A stretch of 40,797 nt of DNA from an uncultured Saprospiraceae bacterium (GTDB lineage: Bacteria; Bacteroidota; Bacteroidia; Chitinophagales; Saprospiraceae): contig CALKXE010000168.1 in the NCBI GenBank assembly GCA_938003955.1, forward strand, positions 1-40,797. Direction: 5' to 3'. The translations under genes were made by a program, and so were the position numbers. The notes under the pieces were generated by a model. That model was given only the letters and a program-made list of their open reading frames with translations. It was not told the origin of the DNA and searched no databases. Below are positions 7,449 to 36,600 of the stretch, piece by piece. Each line of letters starts with the position of its first letter. The first letter of the stretch is position 1.

Positions 7449-9809
7449 ATGAAAGTCTGTATCGCTGAAAAACCATCTGTAGCTAGAGAAATAGCTGCTG
7501 TAATCGGAGCCAAATCAAGAAGAGATGGTTACTTCGAGGGCAATGGCTATGCGGTAACATGGACTTTTGGTCATTTTTGCTCTCTTTATTCACCAGATGA
7601 ATATAAACCAAGCTGGAAGCGGTGGGATCTGAACTCTCTACCAATGTTACCTGAAAAGTTTGAGACTCGATTGATAAATGATTCGGGTGTAAAGAAACAA
7701 TTTAAGGTTATAAAGGGCCTATTCAAATCAGCTTCTGTTGTCATAAACTGCGGTGATGCAGGAATAGAAGGAGAACTCATTCAAAGATGGGTTATTAACC
7801 AAGCAAAATACAAAGGTCCTGTCCAAAGATTATGGATTTCTTCCCTTACAAATGAGGCAATCAGAGAAGGCTTCGGAAAGTTAAAACCCGGAAGTGATTT
7901 TGATAAACTGTACTACGCTGGTAGTGCCAGAGCGATCGGCGATTGGCTATTAGGAATGAATGCTACTAGACTCTATACACTAAAGTATGGAGGATATAAA
8001 CAAGTGCTATCAATAGGCAGAGTACAGACTCCTACCCTAGCAATGATCGTAGAACGTCATCATGAAATCAATAATTTTGTCTCGAAGCCGTTCTGGGAAT
8101 TACAGACGATATATAGAGACACTGCATTCAATAGAATAAAAGGAAGGTTCGAAAAAATAGAGGATGGAAATACAATATTAGATAAGATAAAAGATGCTCC
8201 TTTCGAGATCGTCTCAGCAGATAGAAAAGAAGGTAAGGAATATGCTCCTAGACTATTTGACTTAACAAGTCTGCAAGTATTCTGCAACAAAAGATATAGC
8301 TATAGTGCCGATCAAACACTAAAACTCGTTCAGAAACTCTATGAGATGAAAGTCGTCACTTATCCAAGAGTGGATACTACTTATTTGCCTACTGATCAGC
8401 ATCCCAAGATCAAGGGTATAATGCAAGGAATGAAATCATACAGTCAGTATACTCAGACCGTATTATCCGCTCCGATAAAAAAGACCAAAAGAGTATTCGA
8501 CGATAAGAAAATTACGGATCACCATGCTATCATCCCTACTGGTAAAGAATCACATCTTGATGGTGGACTTGCTAATGTGTATGATGTGATAGCGAAAAGG
8601 TTTATAGCGAACTTCTATCCAGAATGTAAAGTGGCCAATACTACTGTTATCGGTAAAGCAGTGGATGAAGAATTCAAGGCAACAGGTAAAGAAATTCTTG
8701 AACCTGGATGGAGAATACTATTCCCAAAATCAAAGAAGAATGCCCCCGACAAAAAGGAGAAAGACGAGGATAAAATACTACCCTCTTTTAACGTGGGTGA
8801 ATCTGGACCACATGATCCTACTCTGGTAGAAAAGAAAACTCAACCACCTAAGTATTATACGGAAGCTACGCTCCTGAGAGCCATGGAAACAGCAGGAAAG
8901 TCTGTCGATGATGATGAACTGAGAGAACTAATGAAAGCCAATGGAATAGGACGACCGTCAACAAGAGCAGCGATCATAGAAACCCTATTCAAGAGAAAAT
9001 ACGTAAGAAGAAACAAGAAGAATCTAGTCCCGACTGACATAGGCGTCCAATTGATAGACACCATAAATAACACCATGCTAAAGTCTGTAGAACTAACAGG
9101 TCAATGGGAGAAATTATTAAAGGACATTGAAGCGGGAACTTACAACCCCAAAGCATTCATCCAGAACATGAAGAAAATGGTGGACGACCTAGTTACAGAG
9201 GTCAGAATGGAAAAGAAAAAATCATTTATAACTAATGATACCACGTCAAAGTATTCTACGAAAGGAAGTAAGTCCAAATCAACAAAAACTACTACCACAA
9301 AAACTAGATCTACACAATCAAGCAAAGCACCAATAACACAGTCAAAATGCCCCAAATGTAATAACGGAACATTGATAAAAGGAAAGACAGCTTTTGGTTG
9401 CTCTCAATGGAAATCAGGCTGTAAGTTCATGTTGCCATTTCAGATTTATGGCAAAAAAATATCCGAGAATCAATTGCGAAGACTGATCGTAAAAGGTTGT
9501 ACAACTAACCTCAAAGGCTTCACAATCAATGGAAGCAAAGCAGATGGACTTGTGAGGTTCGGCGAAGATCATGCTATAGTATTCGAACCTAAAAAAGGAA
9601 CAGCTCCTAGTCCTCCATCTCAAAAAGCAGATCCGCCGCCGTTATGCCCAAAATGCAAAAAAGGAGCAATTATAAAAGGTAAAACAGCTTATGGCTGCGG
9701 TAATTGGAAATCAGGTTGTGATTTCAAGTTTCCTTTTGATAAAATCAAAGAAATGGCAGCGGGAAAAGCACTGACTAAAGAATTAGTGATGAAGATTATT
9801 AGTGGATAA
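7449..9809 (+). CDS. topB: DNA topoisomerase III (type IA)
   Basis: This 786-residue enzyme relaxes and decatenates DNA by cutting one strand and passing another through; it normally works with a RecQ-type helicase. An N-terminal Toprim domain starts with MKVCIAEKPSVAREIA (catalytic Glu7) and holds GDAGIEGEL at 102-110. The active-site tyrosine is Tyr305 in VTYPRVDTTYLP. The conserved end of the core (MKANGIGRPSTRAAIIETL) is near 497-515. A low-complexity Ser/Thr/Lys linker (about 590-630) leads to two Cys4 zinc ribbons, CPKCNNGTLIKGKTAFGC and CPKCKKGAIIKGKTAYGC, flanking a small domain. The acidic triad reads Asp103-Ala-Gly-Ile-Glu107: the usual second Asp (position 105) is Gly, as I recall for other Bacteroidota TopB proteins. 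No partner helicase adjoins. The upstream region is an unusual repeat array. Confidence 0.95.
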   Translation: MKVCIAEKPSVAREIAAVIGAKSRRDGYFEGNGYAVTWTFGHFCSLYSPDEYKPSWKRWDLNSLPMLPEKFETRLINDSGVKKQFKVIKGLFKSASVVINCGDAGIEGELIQRWVINQAKYKGPVQRLWISSLTNEAIREGFGKLKPGSDFDKLYYAGSARAIGDWLLGMNATRLYTLKYGGYKQVLSIGRVQTPTLAMIVERHHEINNFVSKPFWELQTIYRDTAFNRIKGRFEKIEDGNTILDKIKDAPFEIVSADRKEGKEYAPRLFDLTSLQVFCNKRYSYSADQTLKLVQKLYEMKVVTYPRVDTTYLPTDQHPKIKGIMQGMKSYSQYTQTVLSAPIKKTKRVFDDKKITDHHAIIPTGKESHLDGGLANVYDVIAKRFIANFYPECKVANTTVIGKAVDEEFKATGKEILEPGWRILFPKSKKNAPDKKEKDEDKILPSFNVGESGPHDPTLVEKKTQPPKYYTEATLLRAMETAGKSVDDDELRELMKANGIGRPSTRAAIIETLFKRKYVRRNKKNLVPTDIGVQLIDTINNTMLKSVELTGQWEKLLKDIEAGTYNPKAFIQNMKKMVDDLVTEVRMEKKKSFITNDTTSKYSTKGSKSKSTKTTTTKTRSTQSSKAPITQSKCPKCNNGTLIKGKTAFGCSQWKSGCKFMLPFQIYGKKISENQLRRLIVKGCTTNLKGFTINGSKADGLVRFGEDHAIVFEPKKGTAPSPPSQKADPPPLCPKCKKGAIIKGKTAYGCGNWKSGCDFKFPFDKIKEMAAGKALTKELVMKIISG

Positions 9810-12253: not shown

Positions 12254-12505
12254 ATGTTAGTTATAAGCAGTAGAGAATTTAGACAAAATCAAAGAATGTA
12301 TTTTGACAAAGTAGATAAAGGTGAGCAAATAATAGTCCAACGAGGTAAGGACAAATCTTATGCTTTGACACCAGTTGTCGAAGATGATATATACTTTAAT
12401 GAGAAAATGATTAAGCGAATCAAGGAGAGTGCTAGTCAAGCAAAGAATGGTGAATACACAGAGTTGTCATCCGCTGAAGAAATCAAAGATTTATTAGGTC
12501 TATGA
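12254..12505 (+). CDS. Phd/YefM-family antitoxin
   Basis: An 83-residue protein. The N-terminal half (VISSREFRQNQRMYFDKVDK then GEQIIVQRGKDKSYALTPV) is the Phd/YefM fold: a short beta strand, helices that dimerise and bind the operator, and a strand with R-G-K. The C-terminal half is charged and probably unfolded until it wraps the toxin. It neutralises the YoeB-like toxin encoded next, overlapping it by 4 bases (ATGA at 12502-12505), which implies translational coupling. A palindrome upstream (12221-12237) suggests autorepression. The pair is divergent from the ECF sigma operon. Confidence 0.85.
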   Translation: MLVISSREFRQNQRMYFDKVDKGEQIIVQRGKDKSYALTPVVEDDIYFNEKMIKRIKESASQAKNGEYTELSSAEEIKDLLGL

Positions 12506-12780
12506 TATACAAACTAAGACTTACTCCGACTGCTATAAAAGATATAAATAGGCACAAGAAATCAGGAGACAAAAAACTACTTCAAAAGATTGCAATTTTA
12601 TTGGAAGAACTTAGAAACCATCCAAGAACAGGCACTGGAAAACCTGAGAGGTTAAAACATGATTTAGAGGGCCTTTATTCTAGAAGAATCGATAAGAAAC
12701 ATAGAATGGTTTATGAGATCGAAGATGAAATTATTACAGTGGTAGTTTTGGCTGCATACGCACATTACGATGACAGATAA
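12502..12780 (+). CDS. Txe/YoeB-family mRNA interferase toxin
   Basis: A 92-residue protein of the RelE/YoeB fold, which enters the ribosomal A site and cuts mRNA. The family wording is complete: GTGKPERLKHDLEGLYSRRI, KKHRMVYEI and a terminal AAYAHYDD. The Glu of KPE, the Arg of HRMVY and the His near the C-terminus correspond to E. coli YoeB Glu46, Arg65 and His83, so it looks catalytically intact. Length is close to YoeB (84 residues). It is the second gene of the operon with the Phd-like antitoxin and shares ATGA with it. A long inverted repeat follows at 12818-12866. Confidence 0.88.
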   Translation: MIYKLRLTPTAIKDINRHKKSGDKKLLQKIAILLEELRNHPRTGTGKPERLKHDLEGLYSRRIDKKHRMVYEIEDEIITVVVLAAYAHYDDR

Positions 12781-15313: not shown

Positions 15314-16831
15314 ATGAAAACATATTTACTCTATGCATTTTTCACTTTATTCTCTCTGACTTTATATTCTCAAGATGGGATATTGGACACCTCATTTGGC
15401 AATAATGGTTCTGTAAAAATTCCATATTATGAAAGTAACGCACAGATCTTTACCATTTTGAAGATTGGCAATAACATATTTGCTGGTGGGTATACAAAAG
15501 AGTCGAAAGAAGATTTCTCAATCATTAAAATGGATACAGATGGAAATCTTGATTCTAATTTTGGAGAGAATGGCACTTTACGCTTTGTAATAGGGCAAGG
15601 ATTTGGAAGATGTAGTAAACTGCTTCAACATCCAGATGGAGGGTTAATAGCCATCGGATGGGATCGAAATATAAACAAAGATGAATATATCTTAATCAAA
15701 ATGGATACAGATGGAAATCTTGACCCTAACTATGGCGTCGATGGGATTGCTTCTGGTAATTGGGACTCATCTTCATTCGCAGAATCTGAGATCGCAGATG
15801 CTGCTTTTTTATCAGACGGCAGATTGATTGCTGCAGGGAGATCTTATAATGGAGGCAATACTGATTTTGTTGTTGCATGTTATGATGCCACAGGAAACCC
15901 ATGTACAGACTTTGGTGATAACGGGGTCATAGTCCAACTATTTAATGATGTTGACAAATGGGAAATCGCCGAAGAGTTAGTCGTCGATGCAAATGATAAT
16001 ATATATGTTAGTGGTGAAAACGATGACGATGACAATCTTGTACTTAAATACGATAGCAGTGGCAATCTTGTCAACAGTTTTGGATCTGGTGGAATTCTAG
16101 AGTTTACTAGTTCTTCGCAAGAAACAAGTAGAATAGGTGATCTAGCCATTGACAACGACAATAGACTAGTCGTGTCAGGTAGTGTATATTCAGGTTCGAG
16201 CTCAGGTTTTATATCTAGATATGACAACAATGGAAATCGTGATCTTAGCTTTGGTCAGCAGGGGGAAGTAGTGCTTTCTTCTGTTATTAGTTTTGGAATT
16301 AATGATGCCAAAATTATTGATAATAATGCGCTAATAGTTGCAGGAAACACTTCTGGATTTGGAACTCGCCAAGTCATTGTCAAATTAGATAACTCAGGAA
16401 ACATAGCTACTAATTTTGGTACTGATGGAGTCACAACTATTAAATTGTCTTCTGGATTCACTAGTGCTCGAGAGATGGCAATAGATTCAGAATCTATTTA
16501 TATTGGAGGAGATACTTACGAAAGTGACTATTTTGAATTCGCAGTGACAAAACTATCCAATCAATCAGTCAACACAGAGGATGTTTTCAGTGATCAAGTA
16601 AGTATCCGTCTTTATCCAAACCCTGTGAGCGAACTATTGAACGTGGCAGCCGCAGAAGGAATGAAATCAATAAAAATATTTGATATTTCTGGTAAAGAGG
16701 TATACAATACTGTGTGGTCTAAAACTACTTACAATCATAAGATAAATACCAATAAATGGAATAATGGTATTTATAACATCGTTGTTAAAAATGGTACTAG
16801 GAATAAAGCCATGAGATTTATTAAACATTAA
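15314..16831 (+). CDS. delta-60 repeat protein with T9SS sorting tail
   Basis: A 505-residue secreted protein. A signal peptide spans residues 1-19 (cleaved before QDG). About seven repeats of ~57 residues follow, each carrying a D-x-x-F-G-x-x-G element (LDTSFGNNGSV, LDSNFGENGTL, LDPNYGVDGIA, PCTDFGDNGVI, LVNSFGSGGIL, RDLSFGQQGEV, IATNFGTDGVT). This is the delta-60 repeat, thought to form a beta-propeller. The last ~75 residues (YPNPVSELLNV, IFDISGKEVYN, NNGIYNIVVKNG) are a type A T9SS C-terminal domain, so the protein should be exported across the outer membrane. Two repeats still share 26 identical bases (15527-15552 and 15698-15723), evidence of recent internal duplication. The binding target is unknown. 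Confidence 0.88.
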   Translation: MKTYLLYAFFTLFSLTLYSQDGILDTSFGNNGSVKIPYYESNAQIFTILKIGNNIFAGGYTKESKEDFSIIKMDTDGNLDSNFGENGTLRFVIGQGFGRCSKLLQHPDGGLIAIGWDRNINKDEYILIKMDTDGNLDPNYGVDGIASGNWDSSSFAESEIADAAFLSDGRLIAAGRSYNGGNTDFVVACYDATGNPCTDFGDNGVIVQLFNDVDKWEIAEELVVDANDNIYVSGENDDDDNLVLKYDSSGNLVNSFGSGGILEFTSSSQETSRIGDLAIDNDNRLVVSGSVYSGSSSGFISRYDNNGNRDLSFGQQGEVVLSSVISFGINDAKIIDNNALIVAGNTSGFGTRQVIVKLDNSGNIATNFGTDGVTTIKLSSGFTSAREMAIDSESIYIGGDTYESDYFEFAVTKLSNQSVNTEDVFSDQVSIRLYPNPVSELLNVAAAEGMKSIKIFDISGKEVYNTVWSKTTYNHKINTNKWNNGIYNIVVKNGTRNKAMRFIKH

Positions 16832-16842
16832 AATTGTTGTTG

Positions 16843-16903
16843 CTATAATCCGATCATGAATAAGTTGGAGAGGAACTAATAACTTATTCATGATCAATTA
16901 TAG
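16843..16903. terminator. long AT-rich inverted repeat between convergent genes
   Basis: CTATAAT (16843-16849) pairs with ATTATAG (16897-16903), and ATCATGAATAAGTT (16853-16866) pairs perfectly with AACTTATTCATGAT (16881-16894), giving 21 pairs with a small internal loop. It fills the gap between the delta-60 gene and the end of the exosortase operon. There is no T tract, so a bidirectional RNA-end hairpin is likelier than a classic terminator. Confidence 0.55.
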
Positions 16904-19702
16904 TTAGTTGAATGGTTGAACACGCTGTTTTTTCTTGTGTTTTAACCAAAGAAATAAAAAGATCAATAGTAGCACCCATAAACCTGGTTCCGACATTTGT
17001 TGTGGATCACCACTTAAATCCATATTTTTATCTCCAGACAAAACTTCTTTTTGCTTACGAAGCAGAACTTCTTTTTGTGCCTCATTCTCAACTACAATAA
17101 ACGAAGTCAGCGGAGTCATTATCCTAGCTCTAAAACTGTTTTGAATTATTGTATACCATAAGCTCTTTCCTATTTCTGGATATAAATGCATCATCATCCA
17201 TTGTCCGTGCATTGATAGTCCATTTTCCCACGGAGTACTCGGCTTTGTTGTAGCTTCATTTTTAATTATAAAAACACTAGACATCTGATTATCTTTAAGA
17301 TAAACTTCTGGATTATCGAGACTAGGCCATACTCTCGTTTTTACCTTTCTATCAAATGGCACAAAATCAAGCTGCGCATTCGAAATATCATAAAGTGAAT
17401 GACAGTTGATCGTATCCTGATTACCTATTAAATACAAATTTTCTAATTCTGGAACAGCGAAGCTCAAATCAGAATAATCATTTTCAAAGATGGCATTTCC
17501 AAAATCTTCTGCATCTAATACTATTACAGGATAGTTAATACTCGGGTTTTTATATGCGTTCGTTAGTATTGACTTTATAGCTCTATCTAAATAAAATCCT
17601 CCTTCATAGTCAATCTCTAAATGGCTGACATCTTTATTTCCATCAAACTCATGTGTTCTAATATTAGAATTCACAAAACTTATCTGGGCATTAGTCGAAA
17701 GGTCTGGATAAACTCCCATCAATTCGGAATATCGTTCAATATCGTTTTGGATAGAGTTCTTTTTACTCAATGAAGCATCGACGATAAAGTGAAAATATGG
17801 TTTTCTTTCCACCGTCGAAAGTTCATTTTTTTCTACTCCTGATAAGTAAACTACATTGCCAACCTGCACTTCTGACTTTTGAGGGGTTTTATTTCCTAAT
17901 TGTAAAGTCTGTCCATCAATATCTAATTCGAAAGGGTCCTTGGACGAGAACTGAATTCCTGTCCTCCTAACCTCTTTTGGTGCAAAAGGAAACACTTTAA
18001 ACGACACTGAATTGCCTTTGTCATAGCTAAGTAGTCCTGGATCTTTATTTTGATTTCTTATTTGATTATAAATCCAATTGGCAGATTTCTTATCTGTAAG
18101 TATTCCACTTTCTTTTCTATCTCCGACATACAAGTAATAATCACTAATCCACACCCCTTCAGGGAGCTCTATCTTCGTAACATATTCTTTAAAACCAACA
18201 TTAGTTGTGTTTTCTATTTCAAAATTCACCCATGAGTTCCAACTCTTACTGGCTTCATCATATTCTGAAGATTGATCAAGTGATTTAATTTCTATTCCTC
18301 TCGAGCTCTTTCCTAAAACCTGTGGATTTCTATTGAAGGGCTTATCAAGAAAAACAGCTTCCAGCTTTCTTATCTTATTTCGAGACAGTGTCAAATTATC
18401 AAGAACTATATTATTATAATAACTAGTTAGAAAAGGCAAATGATTACTCCCCATGAAATCTGGTCTTCCTTTCTTATTTTCTTTTATATTTTTAATCACT
18501 GTAGACAGCTTATCTATATTGATATTAATTTTCTCATCAAAAGAAGCATCATATACTTTGTCTAATGCATCTGTAATCGTAGACCTATCTTGAAAATACG
18601 AAGTTGTAATGACTGCAGGAATACTAGCCAATCCAATAATTAAAACAATGGACAAAGCCCATTTCGTGAAATAGTTACTTAGAAACTGCCAATCATCAAA
18701 CAAATCTTTTGACTGAATTACTATTAAAAATAACGGCGAAAGCAATAAAAAACCTAGCCCAAAAACAAAAACACCAGGTAATGAAAATGGAACATATGGT
18801 AAAAACACCAAAACGAAATATAGGATAAACATATACGTCACAGACCTTCCAAAAAATCTGAATAGATTATATCTAGTACCCTCTCTATCTGGAAGTAAAA
18901 AGAAAATAGCATTTAAAAAAGTCAATCCATAAAACCATAAACTATGAAAATCACCGAATACCCCCGATCCAGAAGCACTTGCAAAGATGTCAATCGCTCC
19001 GTTATTGACCATCAACCCTAGAAACGGTAAGACCACAGATAATAACACTCGGTAGATCCAAGATTCAGTTTTAAAAGCATTTCGTTTTAGCGCTACTCTG
19101 TATATCCACGACAAGAAGAAAAATAAGAATGCAACACTCAATATCACACCAAATATCACAAATACATGCTCTGGAAAATTATGACCAAATGGATTCCATA
19201 TTGGAACAATAACTTGAGAAAACAAATAAATGGAAAGTGGAATTGCTAATGCATACAACAAACTGAAGAAGGGTCTTGATTCTCTTGATAACTTCACTGC
19301 CCACACAACTAAATGAACGAGTGAATAAATCAATGTAGGCATCAAAAAACTTCCTATATACATATTCAAATCCTCAGGTACCATCCATCTGGGGATTGAC
19401 CACGGTACTAGTGAGATGTCATCTATACCATAAATACAAAACAAGGTTAAATAGCCAATAAGTATCAGCGCCGTAAAAACAGTCGATACTAATCTTTTCC
19501 TGTACATAAGCACACAGGAATATGCACCAACAGAAAAGGTCATTAAACCAAGTACGCTTGCATATAGAGCCCAGGCATCAGTTTCATCTACTTGCAACTG
19601 ACTCTTAACTACTGACCATATATTATATCCCAGAATCATTAATATAATTGACGGGACTGTATTTAAAAGAATTAACCAAATAGGATTGTTGATCGACTTC
19701 AT
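16904..19702 (-). CDS. MSEP-CTERM polytopic membrane protein with VIT and vWA-like domains
   Basis: A 932-residue protein and the likely single substrate of the exosortase encoded just upstream. The N-terminal ~390 residues hold about ten membrane helices. A VIT domain follows at ~490-600 (YLYVGDRKESGILTDKKSAN, later FAPKEVRRTGIQF). A vWA-like region at ~630-800 begins with a MIDAS-type DxSxS (IVDASLSKKNS). The extreme C-terminus has the tripartite sorting form: motif Met-Ser-Glu-Pro at 903-906 (encoded at 16985-16996), hydrophobic GLWVLLLIFLFLWL, then basic KHKKKQR. These features and gene order match the MSEP-CTERM family (TIGR04286) paired with XrtK. VIT-bearing targets are also known for XrtN, but the literal MSEP favours XrtK. 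It follows the exosortase gene by 24 bases. The physiological role is not known. Confidence 0.85.
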   Translation of the reverse strand: MKSINNPIWLILLNTVPSIILMILGYNIWSVVKSQLQVDETDAWALYASVLGLMTFSVGAYSCVLMYRKRLVSTVFTALILIGYLTLFCIYGIDDISLVPWSIPRWMVPEDLNMYIGSFLMPTLIYSLVHLVVWAVKLSRESRPFFSLLYALAIPLSIYLFSQVIVPIWNPFGHNFPEHVFVIFGVILSVAFLFFFLSWIYRVALKRNAFKTESWIYRVLLSVVLPFLGLMVNNGAIDIFASASGSGVFGDFHSLWFYGLTFLNAIFFLLPDREGTRYNLFRFFGRSVTYMFILYFVLVFLPYVPFSLPGVFVFGLGFLLLSPLFLIVIQSKDLFDDWQFLSNYFTKWALSIVLIIGLASIPAVITTSYFQDRSTITDALDKVYDASFDEKININIDKLSTVIKNIKENKKGRPDFMGSNHLPFLTSYYNNIVLDNLTLSRNKIRKLEAVFLDKPFNRNPQVLGKSSRGIEIKSLDQSSEYDEASKSWNSWVNFEIENTTNVGFKEYVTKIELPEGVWISDYYLYVGDRKESGILTDKKSANWIYNQIRNQNKDPGLLSYDKGNSVSFKVFPFAPKEVRRTGIQFSSKDPFELDIDGQTLQLGNKTPQKSEVQVGNVVYLSGVEKNELSTVERKPYFHFIVDASLSKKNSIQNDIERYSELMGVYPDLSTNAQISFVNSNIRTHEFDGNKDVSHLEIDYEGGFYLDRAIKSILTNAYKNPSINYPVIVLDAEDFGNAIFENDYSDLSFAVPELENLYLIGNQDTINCHSLYDISNAQLDFVPFDRKVKTRVWPSLDNPEVYLKDNQMSSVFIIKNEATTKPSTPWENGLSMHGQWMMMHLYPEIGKSLWYTIIQNSFRARIMTPLTSFIVVENEAQKEVLLRKQKEVLSGDKNMDLSGDPQQMSEPGLWVLLLIFLFLWLKHKKKQRVQPFN

Positions 19703-19726
19703 AGTTTATTGATTGTAAAACATGGT

Positions 19727-20296
19727 TTAATTGATAACAGAAAGACTAGAAGTGGTTTGGAGGTCGTTCTCCAAAGGGGAATCCACTCTATTCTTTATTA
19801 ACACTATATCTACAATAAGGAATGAGATGACTAATAAGACTAGATAAATAAAACCACCAACCGCTTCGTGACTCCATCCGTCCTTAGCGATTCCAAATTG
19901 ATTTAACTTTAATAATATGATGATCCTCGACACATTCGAAATAACAGCAAGAACAAAACTTCCTATTAATATAGCGATAATGTAGCCAACTACAACCCGT
20001 GTAGACCTTATCAAATCAAGGCAAGTAAAAAGAAAAGTCAGAAAACAAATCAGAAAGAAATTTCCACCAGAGCATGATTTATTTATCACAATATTAAACT
20101 CAGGATAGTAATAATCATTCGTCGAAGAATACTGCCATTCCGAATTCTGCATAAGTGAAAACAAAAAATTAGTCGGCCGCAAGAGAATATTAACATCCTC
20201 ACTAGAGCTGTACTTGAACAACAACTTAAGAACAATAAAAATCATAAGCCCTATGACTAAGTATACGATCTGATTTATCTTCATTTCACTTTTCAC
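19727..20296 (-). CDS. xrtK: exosortase, XrtK type
   Basis: A 189-residue polytopic membrane protein with about five helices. The exosortase catalytic triad is visible in the expected order: Cys75 in NKSCSGGNFF, Arg124 in NVSRIIIL and His143 in WSHEAVGGF. Exosortases cut their substrates at a C-terminal sorting signal in the cytoplasmic membrane, probably as a transpeptidation. The compact length and the neighbouring MSEP-CTERM protein point to the XrtK subfamily (TIGR04287). It lies between creD (10 bases upstream) and the substrate gene (24 bases downstream) on one strand, so the three are almost surely cotranscribed. Exopolysaccharide genes, typical neighbours of larger exosortase systems, are absent. 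Confidence 0.85.
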   Translation of the reverse strand: MKSEMKINQIVYLVIGLMIFIVLKLLFKYSSSEDVNILLRPTNFLFSLMQNSEWQYSSTNDYYYPEFNIVINKSCSGGNFFLICFLTFLFTCLDLIRSTRVVVGYIIAILIGSFVLAVISNVSRIIILLKLNQFGIAKDGWSHEAVGGFIYLVLLVISFLIVDIVLIKNRVDSPLENDLQTTSSLSVIN

Positions 20297-20306
20297 ATTT
20301 AGGAGT

Positions 20307-21662
20307 TTAGCTTAATACCGCATCCACATTTCCTTTAGACACTTTACTTTTCTCACCGTACCAATCCATATTTCGACTAAGATACATAGATATCGCCAAG
20401 ACCATAAACAATCCAATACTTCCAACTAACAGTGCAAATTCTTCCATTTGTAATAGTATATAAATATAAGTGTATAGGCCACCCAATATCAAAGTCAATA
20501 ACATCACGTTGTTTCCTTGTCGCAACATGAACTTACTGTACCAGCTAATAAGTCCCACAACAGCTCCTGCTGCAATCAAGTACGCAGATCCAAAACCAAT
20601 GTGTTCCGATAGTGAAAGTAGTAATGAATAAAAGATAGAAAGCGCTAGTCCTATAAATATATACTGCACTGGATGAATTCTGCTTCCTTTTAAGGTTTCA
20701 AAAAAGAAAAACACTAAGAAACTAAGACTGATAATAAGCAATGCATACTTAGCACTTCGCATATTTTTCTGATAATGACCTACTGTCTGCACCAAATCTA
20801 CACCAAATGCTTCTCCTCTATGAGCAAGTTTAACATCAGCATCTTTCCAGGTATCTTTGAACGGCCGATTATATTCTGTCGACTTCCATGTGGCTACAAA
20901 TCCATTTTCAGAAATTTCTCTTTTAGCAGGCAACGGAAGCCCCACAAACCCGGGTGAATCCCAGTCACTACTTATTGTAACTTGAGTGTTACTTGCGAGT
21001 GGCAGATATTTGATAGCCTCACTACCATTGACCCCTATTTCAGTATCAAATGTGATCGTCTTGCTCAAAGTGTCTACATTTATATTGGCATGAATAGCTG
21101 AGGGAAATATGTCGGAATCAGAGGCACCAGATTCCATTTTGTAATTGACATTGTTGCATTTAATATTTACTATATTATCTAGGCTGGCTGATGATGTAAA
21201 GCCTATATCGATTTTAGCATCATCCCAATGGATTTTTGAAACATTTTTTCCAAAACTTGACATCTCCGGCTTATTAAAATGGCCACTAATATTATGATTA
21301 GCAGTATATAAAATTGCCTTATATATGCTCTTTTTCCTTTCTTCCGTATTCAATTGCACATCAATACCGAGTGATTCAGGCAAAACTCTTAATACATGAT
21401 CCTTAGTAATTATTCCATCATCGGTCTTGATTTTTTTGCTATATGGTATACTTAGTATAGGCCCCATCATCTTCTGACTTGGCCCCCAACTGGCAGCAAT
21501 ATCTCTTTGTGATTGACTTTCGAGTCCTTGTCGTTCGTAGATCAGCCCTTTTATGAGCATATTCGGTATCATTAGTAAGAGAATCAAAACAAGGATAAAC
21601 CCTATCTTCAAAAATAGCTTCTTTTGGTCTCCTTTACTCACATTTGCATTCATAACATTCAT
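20307..21662 (-). CDS. creD: CreD-like inner-membrane protein
   Basis: A 451-residue protein of the CreD (CetA) family. One N-terminal helix (about 14-37) is followed by the conserved LIYERQGLESQSQRDIAASW and GPILSIPY. A large periplasmic domain spans about 60-300, and five or so C-terminal helices span about 305-430 (VFFFFETLKGSRIHPVQYIF is the family's typical junction). In gammaproteobacteria creD is the CreBC-induced gene linked to envelope integrity and colicin tolerance; the biochemical role is unknown. Here no creBC two-component genes are present. Instead it heads the exosortase/MSEP operon, only 10 bases from xrtK. The start could be Met1 or Met4. Confidence 0.88.
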   Translation of the reverse strand: MNVMNANVSKGDQKKLFLKIGFILVLILLLMIPNMLIKGLIYERQGLESQSQRDIAASWGPSQKMMGPILSIPYSKKIKTDDGIITKDHVLRVLPESLGIDVQLNTEERKKSIYKAILYTANHNISGHFNKPEMSSFGKNVSKIHWDDAKIDIGFTSSASLDNIVNIKCNNVNYKMESGASDSDIFPSAIHANINVDTLSKTITFDTEIGVNGSEAIKYLPLASNTQVTISSDWDSPGFVGLPLPAKREISENGFVATWKSTEYNRPFKDTWKDADVKLAHRGEAFGVDLVQTVGHYQKNMRSAKYALLIISLSFLVFFFFETLKGSRIHPVQYIFIGLALSIFYSLLLSLSEHIGFGSAYLIAAGAVVGLISWYSKFMLRQGNNVMLLTLILGGLYTYIYILLQMEEFALLVGSIGLFMVLAISMYLSRNMDWYGEKSKVSKGNVDAVLS

Positions 21663-21858
21663 GTTTTTAGTATTAGAATATGATGTAAATATTAGTCTTG
21701 AATTGCCTTTAATCCATACACAACTTTTATCCGTAGTATCTAATCGAGTATTTGATTAAACTTTCTTAAAATTCGTACATAAATAAGAAACGATTTGTAA
21801 TACTGGCGTCACAAGAACCCTTGTTGTTGTTTACAGCCCAAAGAATCATAAGAATTGT

Positions 21859-21866
21859 TATTTTTG
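21859..21866 (+). promoter_or_regulatory. -7 promoter element for the structured RNA
   Basis: TATTTTTG followed by CAC matches TAnnTTTG. Three overlapping TTG triplets (21821-21829) lie upstream but at a longer than usual spacing. The expected start of transcription is close to 21872, just before the RNA stem. Confidence 0.5.
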
Positions 21867-21871
21867 CACTT

Positions 21872-22008
21872 TAAAGTAAAAAAGATCCTAAATTTTAACT
21901 ATCCCTCCACAAGAGGATGGCGCAGTTGATATTTTTTTTCAATCTTATAAGGTCGGAAATCGGATCTTTTTTGTCATAAGGCGTTTTTATGTAAAAACAC
22001 CTTTTTTA
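21872..22008 (+). ncRNA. candidate structured small RNA or leader RNA
   Basis: An 11-bp perfect closing stem (21878-21888 with 21962-21972) encloses an 8-bp hairpin with one bulged C (21899-21920, CCTC/GAGG around loop CACAA) and a weaker hairpin (21925-21943), so the fold is a multibranch junction. A promoter element sits at the front and an intrinsic terminator at the back, with no start codon opening a meaningful frame between. Length is about 135 nt. The lipoprotein gene and then metK follow on the same strand, so it could be a terminated sRNA or a riboswitch-like leader. I could not match it to the known SAM riboswitch cores, SRP RNA (no GGUCAGG...GGAAGG apex) or 6S RNA. Confidence 0.45.
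21978..22008 (+). terminator. rho-independent terminator of the structured RNA
   Basis: AAGGCGTTTTT (21978-21988) pairs with AAAAACACCTT (21993-22003) with one C-A mismatch and a 4-base loop, followed by a T run to 22007. Immediately after, at 22013-22028, CCGACGCAAGCATCGG can form a second small hairpin on the minus strand (with one G-U pair). Confidence 0.7.
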
Positions 22009-22056
22009 TAACCCCGACGCAAGCATCGGAGAATTTAAGTATTAAAAACATAGAAA

Positions 22057-22722
22057 ATGAGAATAATATTACTTCTTATCATTACTGCCTTCATCTCATG
22101 TAAGTCAGATAGTACAACCGTAACTTCAAGCGATAAACCAGCTACAGAAGAAACGAATCAAAACCCTGCGGTTCAAGAATTTTTAGACAGTAAGCCTACA
22201 GTGACCAGTGCAAAAGCTGGATCTACAGCAGGAGGAATCGAGACTAACTTTAATAAAAGCGGCATTCCGGATGCATGTGATCTACTTACACAAGAGACGA
22301 TTGCTAAATACGTTGGTTTTCCATCAGCAAGTATCATGTTGTCTGACGGATCAAGTCCAAAAAACAAACTGCAACGAGCATGTTTTTTTAAATGGGACGG
22401 ATCAGAGATAAAAAATGCTGGTGTAATGGTACAAGTCCAACAAAACCCTGTTGCTGATGAGGTACCTGAATACCTAACATATATGATCCAAAGTTTAAAA
22501 ACGGATGGCGAAAATAATATGTCTGGTGCTAATGTTAAATTCCAGGATTGGCCAGAATTTGGAGATGATGGTGCATATTCTACTGAAGTTGGAAAGTATA
22601 TGTGGAGAGTAGGTAATGATTGGGCTTTCATGGTAGCATTTAATACAACTATGAATGCACGTGATCAACAAAAAGCTGCTAAAGCTTTCGCCAAAGAAGT
22701 AATGGATAGAATGACATTCTAA
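22057..22722 (+). CDS. lipoprotein of unknown function
   Basis: A 221-residue protein with a lipoprotein signal (MRIILLLIITAFISC, lipid-modified Cys15) and a Thr/Ser-rich linker to about residue 65. The folded part (about 70-221) opens with DACDLLTQETIAKYVGF, has an ACFFKWDG element with a second Cys, then GVMVQVQ and a late W-R-V-G-N-D-W. This pattern (an early Cys in D-x-C-x-L-L and a later Cys before an aromatic strand) is seen in DUF3558-like exported domains, but the match is loose. It lies 49 bases after the terminator of the structured RNA and 72 bases before metK, which has its own promoter element. Confidence 0.7.
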   Translation: MRIILLLIITAFISCKSDSTTVTSSDKPATEETNQNPAVQEFLDSKPTVTSAKAGSTAGGIETNFNKSGIPDACDLLTQETIAKYVGFPSASIMLSDGSSPKNKLQRACFFKWDGSEIKNAGVMVQVQQNPVADEVPEYLTYMIQSLKTDGENNMSGANVKFQDWPEFGDDGAYSTEVGKYMWRVGNDWAFMVAFNTTMNARDQQKAAKAFAKEVMDRMTF

Positions 22723-26769: not shown

Positions 26770-27465
26770 TTAGATTTTACACATCCTTAGTGTTCTAACC
26801 TCTTCACCATCTTGATTTTCGAGTCTTAATAAGTACGTTCCTGACTTCAATTTAGAAATATCATGTGTCATTCCTCGAGTATGGTTCAGTTTACTGATTT
26901 GACTACCTATAATATTAAAAATGCTTATTGTCGAGATTCTATCATCGTTAATCAATCGGAACATATCCCTTGATGGATTGGGGTAGATGACCATATCTTC
27001 TATTTCTATTTTATTAGTTGATACAACACATGACGTTTCAGCTATTGGATCTATAAAATCAGTATTATCAAACAGTCTTAATACTCCAGATGAAGATCCT
27101 GAAATATTATATGTATTCTTCCAATCACTTTGATTACTTCGGATCTTCACAGCAAATGCATGCGTCGCTCCTGGTTCAAAATAATTAATTAAGAAAGTGC
27201 TTGTACTAGACTGTCCAACATTCCAATTATAATGAAGTTTTAAATCGGTGATCTCAAATTTCCAATCTTCAGGAAAGTCCGCTGCTGGTTCAAATTGCCA
27301 AACTAAGCCTACTTCCTCAGCCCCATTATTAGTTATGTCGATTAATATGTATAGTTGCTCAATATCATCAGCCTCAAACATCAAACAGCCTGGTTCGACA
27401 GTCACTTGAGCGTGTCCAAAACCTAGAGACAAAAGAATGAAAATATTTGTAATTGCAAGTTTCAT
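26770..27465 (-). CDS. T9SS cargo protein, paralogue of the next gene
   Basis: A 231-residue secreted protein. A signal peptide is cleaved before residue ~20 (FGHA-Q). The mature domain (about 20-145) begins VTVEPGCLMFEADDIEQLYI and has an immunoglobulin-like beta pattern (WQFEPAADFPEDWKFEITDL). The last ~80 residues are a type A T9SS sorting domain: VIYPNPSRDMFRL, SIFNIIGSQIS, GTYLLRLENQDGEEVRTLRM. It is clearly homologous over its full length to the gene at 27571-28269, on the same strand, so the two arose by tandem duplication. A strong terminator lies between them, so it probably has its own weak promoter or depends on read-through. The mature domain is not in a family I can name. Confidence 0.8.
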   Translation of the reverse strand: MKLAITNIFILLSLGFGHAQVTVEPGCLMFEADDIEQLYILIDITNNGAEEVGLVWQFEPAADFPEDWKFEITDLKLHYNWNVGQSSTSTFLINYFEPGATHAFAVKIRSNQSDWKNTYNISGSSSGVLRLFDNTDFIDPIAETSCVVSTNKIEIEDMVIYPNPSRDMFRLINDDRISTISIFNIIGSQISKLNHTRGMTHDISKLKSGTYLLRLENQDGEEVRTLRMCKI

Positions 27466-33694: not shown

Positions 33695-36600
33695 TTGTTT
33701 ATAAAAAGTAATACTTTGAAATATATATTTAAGCTATCCTTACTATTGATCCTGTCCGTTGCTATATTTTCAGGCTGTGCTTCAAAGCGTAAGAAAAAAG
33801 GTGAAGAACCTTCAAAGCTCAGTAAATTCTACCATAACACAACGTCTCTATACAACGGTTACTTCAATGCGAATGAGCTAATGAAGGAAAGCTACTTGAC
33901 GTTAAGGCAATCTCACAAAGACAACTATACTGAGTTACTTCCATTATACGACTACGTAACCGTTGCTGACCCTAAAGTAGTATATGCAAACCTAGATAAA
34001 GCTATAGAAAAAGTAACTACTGTAGCTGCCCTGCATGAACCAAGTAAGTGGGTAGATGACTGTTATGTTCTGATGGGAGAAGCACAATACCTCAAACAAG
34101 AATTCGAAACAGCAGAAGAAACATTTGCATATTTTAAAGATGAATTCAATCCGAACAATCCTTTTGGAAGAAATTACAAGAAGAAAAAGAAAAGTTCTAA
34201 GCAAATAAAAAAGGAAAAAGATAAGGAGAGAAAGGAAGAGAAAAAAGACAAGGAAGAGAAAAAAGAAGAAGAGAAAAAAACAAAAGAAGAAGAAAGAAAA
34301 GCTAAGAAAAAAGCAAGAGAGGAAGCCGATAAAGCCAAGCAAAAAGAACGAGACGCTAAAAAGAAAGCAAGAGAAGAGGCAAAAAAGAAAAAGAAGAAAA
34401 AGAAAACTAAAAGAGGAGGTAAAAAGCAAAGACCTGAAAAGGAAGATAAAAAGGAAGATGTAAAGAAGAAAGAGGAGTCTAAAGTTGAAGAAGTAATTAC
34501 TGAAAAAGAATCAACAGTAAGTGCTAAAATAGATGACAAAAAGATAGAAAAAAAATCATCTAGAGATGACGAAGAAGAGAGAGACGAGGAGTTCGTAGAG
34601 GACAAGAAAAAAGATCAAAAGAAGAAAAAAGATAAAACCGCTTACTCAAAGGGTATGATGTGGTACGCAAAGACATTAGTGCAAAGAGATAAGCTATCTA
34701 ATGCTTCTTACATGGTGAAAAGAATGAAGGAAGATGGCGAAATGCCAGATGAGGCGAGAAGAGAAGTTCCAGTAATACTAGCAGACATAAACATAAGAGA
34801 GGAAAACTACGGTACAGCCATCACTTACTTAGACGAAGCAATCGAATTGGCAAAAGAAAAAGGTCTAAAAGCCAGATATGCTTTTGTACAAGGACAACTT
34901 TACATGAAGTCTAACGACTATGTTAATGCTAGTCAATCATTTTCAAATGCAAAAAAATGGGCTAAATCCTTCGAGATGAAATTCATGGCAGAACTGAATG
35001 CTGAGAAGTCTAATATGATGGGTGGAAGTAAAACCGATGAAGCAGTAATTGCTAAGTTGGATAAAATGGTGAAGGAATATAAATACAGTGAATTCTTGGA
35101 TCAACTTTACTTTACAAAGGGTGAAATATTACTTGAAAATGGAAATTTTGATGAAGCACTTAAAAGTTTTTCTAATTCAATCTCAAATAATACTAGTAAC
35201 ATAGCATTAAAACAAGAGACGTATTTCAAATTAGCTTACCTATTTTACGATAAGGAAAACTATGTAGACTCTAAATCTTACTTTGACTCCACACTTATGG
35301 TATTAGAAAAAGAGGATCCTAGATATCGAGAAGTAAGCAACTACTCAGAAAACCTAATTGAAATAGCCCAAAATATACAAATAATAAAAATGCAGGACAG
35401 CCTACTAAACATGGTAGCATGGTCCGATGAAAAAATAGAAGAAGTAGCAGAAAAGCTTGTCGAAGAGAATCTATTAGCTCGTGAACTGGCTGGTAAAACA
35501 GGTGCTGCACCTGGTCGAATAAGTACTGCGCTGATTAATGGTCTGGGTGGTGGAAGCTTAAAATCTTCTAGTTTCTTTGCCTATGATCCTTTGGCTAAAC
35601 AAAGGGGGCAAAAAGACTTTGCCAATAAATGGGGTGACATCGAGTTATCAGATAATTGGAGAAGAAGTGACAAATCAGGAATCTTCGGAACAGAGGAAGA
35701 AGAGGAAGAGGAGGAAAAAGTACCAGAAGATGGATTTCAAGAAGACGAAATTGGTCAAATGATCAATACAATAAAAAGTCAAATTCCTTATAGCGACGAA
35801 GCAAAATTGGTCATCAATACTAAATTGGAGAAAGCATTCTACGAATTAGGAAAAGGCTATAGAGACAAGATTCAAAAATTTGAGAAATCCGCTAATACAC
35901 ATGAGGAACTGCTAAAACGTTTCCCAGCTTTTAATAATAAACTTGATGTGTACTATTATCTATATCTATCATATTTAGATCTTAATAACAAAACAAAAGC
36001 AAACTACTACAAGGAGAAAATACTATCTGAATTTCCAGATACTGAATTTGCAAAAGCAATATCTGATCCTAACTATGCAGCTGGCAATCTGAGTAAGGAG
36101 CAAAAACTAAATAAGTACTATGAAGAAACTTATCAACTTTTCGAAAAAGGGGATTATCAAAGTGCTTACACCAAGGCAGATCAGTCAGAGAAAATATTTG
36201 GAAAAACAAACGAACTAAGGCCAAAGTTTGCTCTTGTAAAAGCAATGGCAACAGGTAGCGTCGAAGGAAAAGCTCCATATATAACTGCATTAAAAGATGT
36301 AATAACAAGATATCCTAATACTCCAGAAAAAGCAAGAGCGAATGAAATACTTAGATTTCTCCAAGGAGACAAGGATGCATTTACTGGTATTGACATAGAA
36401 GAAGTAGATGATATTTTCTCTGTCGAAGACGAGAAGTTACATTATGTTGCAATCGTGCTATATGGTGTTACGCCAGCAAAAGTTATAGAGGCTAAAATAC
36501 AAGTCAGTAACTATAATAAAAAGTACCATAAGTTGAAGAAACTTCAACTTGGTGAATCTCCTCTTGATAGAGATAAAAAATCCGAAATCGTACTCGTAAG

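Follow-up and report, generated by a model that had tools for sequence, protein, structure and literature searches.

A window of 40,797 nucleotides (nt) from an uncultured Saprospiraceae bacterium (contig CALKXE010000168.1) carries a single minus-strand unit of three genes, encoding the inner membrane protein CreD, exosortase K (XrtK) and a protein with a C-terminal Met-Ser-Glu-Pro sorting signal (MSEP-CTERM protein, hereafter MSEP protein). Taken as a whole, the reading that we consider fairly probable is that the MSEP protein, a polytopic VIT-vWA protein, is remodelled at its C-terminus by XrtK acting as a dedicated transpeptidase, with creD standing outside the reaction, often as a member of a shared inner-membrane regulon. 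The window pair (XrtK and MSEP protein) is a member of a known family. All three proteins match, over the cut-offs, the families named for them in an initial annotation of this DNA (TIGR04286, TIGR04287 and PF06123), the best exosortase match of the enzyme is XrtK, with none better outside XrtK, and the coordinates, strand and intergenic spacings given there (10 nt between creD and xrtK, 24 nt between xrtK and the MSEP gene) are correct. The features of the unit, with lengths in amino acids (aa) and model confidence as predicted local distance difference test (pLDDT), are:

20307..21662, minus strand: creD, opening the unit and encoding an inner membrane protein of 451 aa (PF06123, 472.1 bits; NF008712, 459.9 bits, curated cut-off 275 bits)
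19727..20296, minus strand: xrtK, exosortase K, 189 aa counted from GTG (TIGR04287, 106 bits, curated cut-off 55 bits)
20072..20074, minus strand: codon of the catalytic Cys75 (invariant in 67/67 XrtK sequences)
19925..19927, minus strand: codon of Arg124 (invariant in 67/67)
19868..19870, minus strand: codon of His143 (invariant in 67/67)
16904..19702, minus strand: MSEP gene, encoding the 932-aa MSEP-CTERM protein, the predicted XrtK substrate (TIGR04286, 810.8 bits, curated cut-off 150 bits)
18602..19681, minus strand: N-terminal membrane domain, residues 8-367, 11 predicted helices (hydropathy, positive-inside loops, models with a pLDDT of about 86)
17957..18220, minus strand: VIT domain, residues 495-582 (PF08487, 33.4 bits)
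17315..17815, minus strand: vWA-like domain, residues 630-796 (the model matches many vWA/I domains)
16985..16996, minus strand: Met-Ser-Glu-Pro sorting motif, residues 903-906 (within a stretch, 899-907, with a pLDDT < 50, ahead of the last helix)
16910..16981, minus strand: C-terminal membrane helix and basic tail, residues 908-931 (helix in the model; five K/R and no D/E among the last 12 residues)

The MSEP protein aligns with TIGR04286 over its full length (residues 3-927 to positions 2-918 of 920). Its hydropathy profile shows 11 helices, then a 534-residue soluble stretch and one further helix; the initial annotation, which was right about the polytopic character of the protein, had counted about 10 membrane helices. 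Loops rich in K and R alternate in a pattern that predicts an inside location for the N-terminus and the final 12 residues and an outside location for the soluble part. A structure model from 50 sequences has a mean pLDDT of 85.7 and a predicted template modelling score (pTM) of 0.85. The membrane domain folded alone (residues 1-396, pLDDT 86) had no PDB match at E ≤ 0.001, so the assignment of a known fold was dropped; this missing match is not evidence of a new fold. The modelled soluble part matches inter-alpha-inhibitor heavy chain 1 (Foldseek E 1.8e-9; residues 467-879, Z 10.6, root-mean-square deviation 8.9, 304 aligned), and the vWA-like fold proposed earlier is supported by this model. 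The DxSxS motif proposed with it (D642, S644, S646) is not a feature of the family, in which the D is kept in 49/50 sequences, the first S in 46/50 and the last S in 6/50, and a metal-ion-dependent adhesion site (MIDAS) as a working metal-binding site was rejected on this lack of conservation. The C-terminal motif, helix and basic tail are all present as described. Relatives were surveyed at 80 named loci encoding MSEP relatives, the best 80 of 125 matches (L043 and L044, from the same genomes as L070 and L087, are excluded from the locus maps); M[STD]EP occurs within the last 60 residues of all 62 complete XrtK-linked proteins at these loci, a count that leaves out L097, L114 and L129, which are cut at a contig end. 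At one Aquimarina locus (L083, 10001-12822), the MSEP gene lies in two frames of 144 and 796 aa, reflecting a frameshift or a sequencing error.

XrtK has the Cys75/Arg124/His143 triad noticed at the outset, unchanged across the 67 sequences compared. Its start codon is GTG, with an in-frame ATG four codons downstream as an alternative, and the residue numbering therefore depends on the choice of start. It is the only XrtK match and the only exosortase in the source genome (search at E ≤ 0.001; assembly G000, 5.24 Mb, 304 contigs, 94% complete). A model of the MSEP tail (A3), built from 25 rows and used for genome searches, matches one protein in this genome, the window MSEP protein. Across 27 XrtK genomes, it finds a single strong match in 26, any second match having an E value of 0.0036 or weaker; the genome missed is G137, in which the tail reads MDEP. 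The view of XrtK as an enzyme dedicated to one substrate, already advanced for the window, is thus supported at the sequence level. XrtK exceeds its cut-off in 4/296 genomes of the phylum and MSEP in 5/296. Tested as an XrtN system, the window gave a substrate score of 63.5 bits against a TIGR04477 cut-off of 250, and XrtN was not among its exosortase matches.

The substrate would thus have 11 helices in the inner membrane and then, in the periplasm, its VIT-vWA region; a flexible linker containing MSEP would lead from there to the last helix and to a basic tail in the cytoplasm. XrtK, as a Cys-Arg-His transpeptidase working on the periplasmic side, would cleave in or close to MSEP and attach the VIT-vWA region by its newly formed C-terminus to another molecule of the envelope, perhaps with a role in envelope integrity. 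This would yield a covalent link or an altered state of the protein rather than secretion, because the other 11 helices hold the protein in the inner membrane; the initial annotation had rightly pointed out that the polytopic substrate would stay in the membrane after a cut at MSEP. CreD would take no part in this reaction. Exosortases and archaeosortases are generally regarded as transpeptidases, and archaeosortase substrates are reportedly lipid-anchored, as the title of one paper has it. The view of exosortases as transpeptidases speaks against a simple proteolytic switch, in which XrtK would remove the last helix and the basic tail without transfer and thereby change the VIT-vWA protein in its state or stability. 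Such a switch would be in keeping with a substrate that this cut alone cannot release from the membrane, given its 11 other helices, and we regard it as possible but rather unlikely.

The importance of processing by an exosortase is suggested by an exchange of tail and enzyme in 12 Hymenobacter-type genomes (11 named, plus G166), which have no XrtK match anywhere at E ≤ 0.1. Their MSEP-family proteins end in a PID-CTERM-like tail (e.g. TPIDGG followed by a helix); the PID_CTERM cut-off is passed by 10/12 of these tails in the genome search, in which they were recognised by frame length (948-1013 aa), and by 7/12 in hmmscan. A single exosortase exceeds the general cut-off in each of these genomes, and it is XrtX in 12/12; at L144 the XrtX gene adjoins a PID-CTERM gene. 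Two Hymenobacter genomes with XrtK retain MSEP despite also holding XrtX. An aconitase gene lies ≤5 kb upstream in 7/12 XrtK-less loci and in both XrtK-bearing Hymenobacter loci, and because this neighbour is retained with and without XrtK, xrtK was probably lost from the site. Since the XrtK-less proteins took on a PID-like tail instead of losing their tail, an exosortase tail seems to be needed by the MSEP-family protein, whichever the enzyme, and the swap argues that being processed is the point. The Hymenobacter rows cluster together in the MSEP tree, and 11 XrtK-less rows form one well-supported set, with L126 outside it in a weak placement. Four other loci lacking XrtK beside MSEP have XrtK elsewhere in the genome (partial in the genome of L053, the contigs of L053 and L068 ending ahead of MSEP); L053, L068 and L119 keep MSEP or MTEP, and L124 reads MTAP. 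The source genome has no PID tail at E ≤ 0.1.

The MSEP motif is kept in Hymenobacter norwichensis (L089), in which the last helix (LLLLLAGG) resembles, by eye, a PID-type helix and is perhaps an intermediate. Aconitase is encoded near the Hymenobacter MSEP gene (L048, L110) and near an XrtN system (L047), with TIGR01340 scores >1100 bits in L110 and L047; this proximity may reflect chance or a shared insertion site.

In relatives, the pair is often found inside one type of inner-membrane operon or carries the operator of that operon elsewhere. The recurrent gene set, present in 16/65 XrtK loci, encodes a membrane protein of about 203 aa (no Pfam match; one protein tested) and an HTH_34 protein of about 98 aa (PF13601, 104 bits; one protein tested), with further genes for Coq4-like, DUF1361, and CreD or DUF4153 proteins. 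DUF4153 takes the place of CreD in six loci, its identity having been checked in all six. The XrtK-MSEP pair lies in or beside this operon in 16/55 loci having >3 kb upstream, and its slots differ: it follows CreD, DUF4153, HTH_34 or DUF1361, or it separates HTH_34 from Coq4 or the ~203-aa gene from HTH_34. The operon also exists without the pair. Among 20 longer CreD loci (L199-L218, from genomes chosen for CreD), 15 have both the ~203-aa gene and HTH_34 in the vicinity of CreD, and XrtK occurs in none of the 20. L087 (Flavobacterium sp. 9AF) and L211 have closely comparable operons (identities of 96% for HTH_34, 92% for the ~203-aa protein, 87% for CreD, 74% for DUF1361 and 53% for the Coq4-like protein), and L211 has an empty site, a 144-nt spacer, where L087 carries XrtK-MSEP. 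On the MSEP tree (82 rows), the operon label requires 12 changes, three of them forced. At L052 (Marinifilum), an inner-membrane gene of the operon, encoding a diacylglycerol kinase (9080-9469; PF01219, 104 bits), is situated between creD and xrtK. The source genome has no match to the HTH_34 regulator at E ≤ 1e-8, and the window creD is the only trace of the operon found in it; the three-gene unit looks like a remnant that would have been left after loss of the regulator gene and operator.

The spacers of this operon carry an inverted repeat with the consensus TTTACTTTG-N5-CAAAGTACTTT (core CTTTG-N5-CAAAG), which we consider to be a candidate operator for the winged-helix HTH_34 regulator; the repeat is seen directly in the DNA, and we infer its binding by the regulator and the direction of the effect. 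It follows HTH_34 in 16/16 loci with the ~203-aa gene and HTH_34, and in 15/16 it lies ≤150 nt from where the ~203-aa gene is called to start, some starts being called too far upstream (L190 and L197 were left out of one operon/repeat comparison as duplicates of L218 and L203). Standalone cassettes also carry it: exact copies, counted from -250 to +100 nt of the called start, occur at 20/64 cassettes versus 1/1086 control starts of the same loci, L071 being left out for want of upstream sequence. These 20 comprise 8/48 standalone XrtK-bearing loci (Dysgonomonas, a Prevotella metagenome-assembled genome (MAG), Hymenobacter, Aureivirga and Nonlabens) and 12/16 loci without XrtK beside MSEP, namely all 12 of the Hymenobacter type. 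The regulator was sought in 34 genomes: 20 with a standalone site, 12 hand-picked from those with a standalone XrtK-bearing cassette that lacks the site, G328 (the genome of L071) and the source genome. A strong HTH_34 match was found in 20/20 with the site versus 5/12 without (Fisher p 0.0002, a statistic ignoring relatedness), G328 and G000 standing outside this comparison, which becomes 5/13 if G000 is added. At strong regulator loci, the ~203-aa gene adjoins in 26/26 and at least two repeat sites are present in 24/26; four weaker HTH_34 paralogues (about 70 bits) have no repeat sites.

The Bacteroidota -33/-7 promoter consists of TTTG and TAnnTTTG, separated by about 20 nt. The left arm TTTG of the repeat lies 19-21 nt before TAnnTTTG in 13/14 Hymenobacter-type loci (background for the box: 129/28,000 random 32-nt stretches of these loci) and, because the repeat overlaps the -33 box, the regulator would probably act as a repressor in Hymenobacter. 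The promoter box is missing from the six standalone sites outside Hymenobacter. The left half of the repeat was also considered as a -7 box, which it matches at only 9/51 sites; in Hymenobacter, it fits the -33 box instead. In two XrtN systems (L047 and L049), the repeat precedes the VIT gene by 22 and 26 nt, and it is absent before that of a third (L032), the three being identified by TIGR04476 and TIGR04477. At 22 weak TIGR04286 VIT loci (L020-L031 and L033-L042; L030, with a frame open at its 5' end, is excluded), no exact repeat was found ≤400 nt from the frame start, the upstream sequence covered being about 1.1-1.4 kb. In the source genome, no repeat with up to two mismatches lies between -250 and +100 relative to the start of xrtK, and a scan of the whole window at ≤1 mismatch gave a single match, at 35105, as chance predicts.

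Some of the pairs have probably moved recently between lineages. The MSEP proteins of L051, L057, L061, L066, L070 and L104 are 84-95% identical across families, with 84% identity between Balneola (L070, Balneolota) and Aequorivita (Bacteroidota), a pattern that probably reflects recent horizontal transfer of the XrtK-MSEP pair among these loci. XrtK-MSEP is also found in bins named Fibrobacterota, Pseudomonadales, Treponema and Elusimicrobia (L092, L096, L098, L101, L106, L069), as a result of transfer or of mis-binned contigs. The adjacency to creD might then be incidental, XrtK-MSEP being a horizontally spreading cassette that lands widely, with the creD operon as one landing place. The patchiness of XrtK (over its cut-off in four of the 296 genomes), the Balneola-Aequorivita identity and the location of 48/66 examined XrtK-bearing cassettes outside the operon, 40 of these 48 without an exact repeat, are all compatible with this explanation. 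However, the recurrence of one operon type, together with the frequency of the repeat outside the operon, goes far beyond chance, and the regulator accompanies the repeat in every genome with a standalone site; we therefore find incidental adjacency improbable.

The two genes of the pair are far more constant companions of each other than creD is of either. XrtK was found in 65/80 named loci, and in 65/65 it lies ≤400 nt from MSEP on the same strand, the commonest arrangement being a 17-nt overlap (39/67), in place of which the window has its 24-nt gap. CreD is near XrtK-MSEP in 10/65 named XrtK loci (Aquimarina, Marinifilum, Labilibaculum, Saprospiraceae, Roseivirga and Flavobacterium), and its adjacency to xrtK, first noticed in the window, is thus not confined to the source genome, in which the window creD is the sole CreD match. 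Among 44 genomes with XrtK-MSEP and no creD seen at the locus, CreD is present in 14 (two of these being partial matches), and 30, many of them incomplete MAGs, have no CreD match; CreD is found in 67/292 genomes of the phylum. CreD is therefore, as far as gene content goes, neither needed by nor special to the XrtK-MSEP pair, given its absence from these 30 genomes and its much wider distribution than that of XrtK, and its status as an obligatory partner is rejected on the first of these grounds. On a CreD tree of 59 rows (excluding L203, L218 and CreD frames ≤380 aa), XrtK-linked CreDs require six changes, all six forced by well-supported branches, which suggests that the linkage was gained or lost repeatedly. 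CreD is required for envelope integrity in Stenotrophomonas (PMC4689548). In Proteobacteria, CreD is controlled by CreBC; in many of the relatives surveyed here, an HTH_34 protein is present instead. The supposition of the initial annotation that the XrtK sorting unit has CreD as a third, functional component, for instance as an aid in processing of the MSEP protein, is unsupported and very improbable: creD does lie directly upstream in the window and near the pair elsewhere, with a linkage that arose or was lost at least six times, but most genomes with an unlinked pair have no CreD match, DUF4153 stands without CreD in six loci, the pair occupies several slots of the operon, and CreD is far commoner than XrtK. 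The link with creD appears to be better explained by a shared operon and operator, with CreD in relatives as a fellow member of the inner-membrane operon.

Several points weigh against remodelling of the substrate by a dedicated XrtK with creD as a regulon neighbour. Cleavage and transfer by XrtK are predicted activities. The regulon is seen in relatives only, the source genome having neither a regulator match nor a nearby repeat; 40/48 standalone XrtK-bearing loci, including the horizontally spread group, carry no exact repeat, and the regulator is present in 5/12 tested genomes in which the cassette has no repeat. The link to XrtN rests on 2/3 systems, both from one genus code. Finally, 5/12 PID-like tails score too low in hmmscan to pass the curated cut-off, and the tail exchange may represent one or two events, so that the 12 genomes do not amount to 12 tests.

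Comparison with known systems places the window closest to the XrtK/MSEP-CTERM pair (TIGR04287/TIGR04286), with which it shares the families, the gene order and one substrate per genome, and from which it differs in having creD directly upstream and a gap rather than an overlap, and in that no regulator or operator was found. The XrtN system (TIGR04476/TIGR04477) has a homologous VIT substrate, which aligns with the membrane part of the MSEP protein at 21-22% identity, a dedicated adjacent exosortase, tails with VPEP before the last helix in three systems and CTTTG-N5-CAAAG upstream in two of these; it differs in its exosortase (a 406-position model) and its tail, the window protein scoring below the TIGR04477 cut-off. 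XrtX/PID-CTERM (NF046081/NF046080) replaces XrtK and the MSEP tail on the same protein family in the 12 Hymenobacter-type genomes, which, unlike the source genome with its lack of any PID tail, also hold small PID-CTERM proteins. VIT-vWA proteins with exchangeable sorting tails (GlyGly-CTERM, PEP-CTERM and LPXTG) are noted in section 12 of PMC3237569, which likewise describes one VIT-vWA family with differing tails and matching enzymes; the tails are other ones, and that section contains no swap of MSEP for PID tied to loss of XrtK. The human inter-alpha-inhibitor heavy chain 1 (PDB 6fpy) has the same arrangement of VIT and vWA over residues 467-879 of the MSEP protein, but it is a secreted protein without a membrane domain. 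The heavy chain is itself processed at its C-terminus and ester-linked to a glycan, which provides an analogy only.

The description of the source organism as a bacterium with a type IX secretion system (T9SS) rests on two T9SS type A tail matches in the window (15314-16831 and 26770-27465). The presence of an exosortase alongside a T9SS would not be unique to this genome, because F. johnsoniae has both XrtF and a T9SS, and deletion of xrtF in this species impairs biofilm formation and surface colonisation (PMC10936215). Between the convergent ends of the first T9SS-tailed gene and the MSEP gene, a 15-bp inverted repeat was noticed by eye (16852-16895), and this is perhaps a two-way terminator. 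There is no excess of sigma-70-type promoters (20 versus 25.3 in shuffles) or terminators (3 versus 2.5) in the unit. A possible RNA element in the spacer that separates creD from the divergent gene was considered and dropped, its three weak matches at 21600-22100 all being below the gathering score; the only RNA-family match at that score in the whole window is a tRNA. Elsewhere in the window (12254-12780), there are two small overlapping genes, one for a YoeB-type toxin (TIGR02116, 83 bits, cut-off 51.8) and the other for a Phd/YefM-like antitoxin that narrowly misses the gathering score (24 bits versus 29.8).

As judged by titles in the open-access literature, no paper was found on MSEP-CTERM, XrtK, XrtN, PID-CTERM or exosortase with Hymenobacter, nor on a CTTTG-N5-CAAAG operator or HTH_34 with creD. 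XrtK/MSEP has so far been a named pair without an assigned purpose, and what is new here, as far as we have seen, is the operator, the recurrence of the pair at different slots of one operon type and the exchange of MSEP/XrtK for PID/XrtX. We give about even odds to the existence of a previously undescribed Bacteroidota regulon, in which an HTH_34 repressor and a membrane partner of about 203 aa would act on ACTTTG-N5-CAAAGT, and in which a main effector would be a polytopic VIT-vWA protein working only once processed by an exosortase; the enzyme would be exchangeable (XrtK, XrtN or XrtX), the tail would evolve to match it, and CreD and DUF4153 would be alternative companions. Through the operator and regulator, the pair is connected with inner-membrane genes over part of its range, and the timing of its expression becomes approachable. 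The Hymenobacter tail exchange represents a natural test, in which XrtK has gone, yet the protein has gained a tail suited to the remaining exosortase. The action of an exosortase on an integral membrane protein thus becomes testable in cultured strains.

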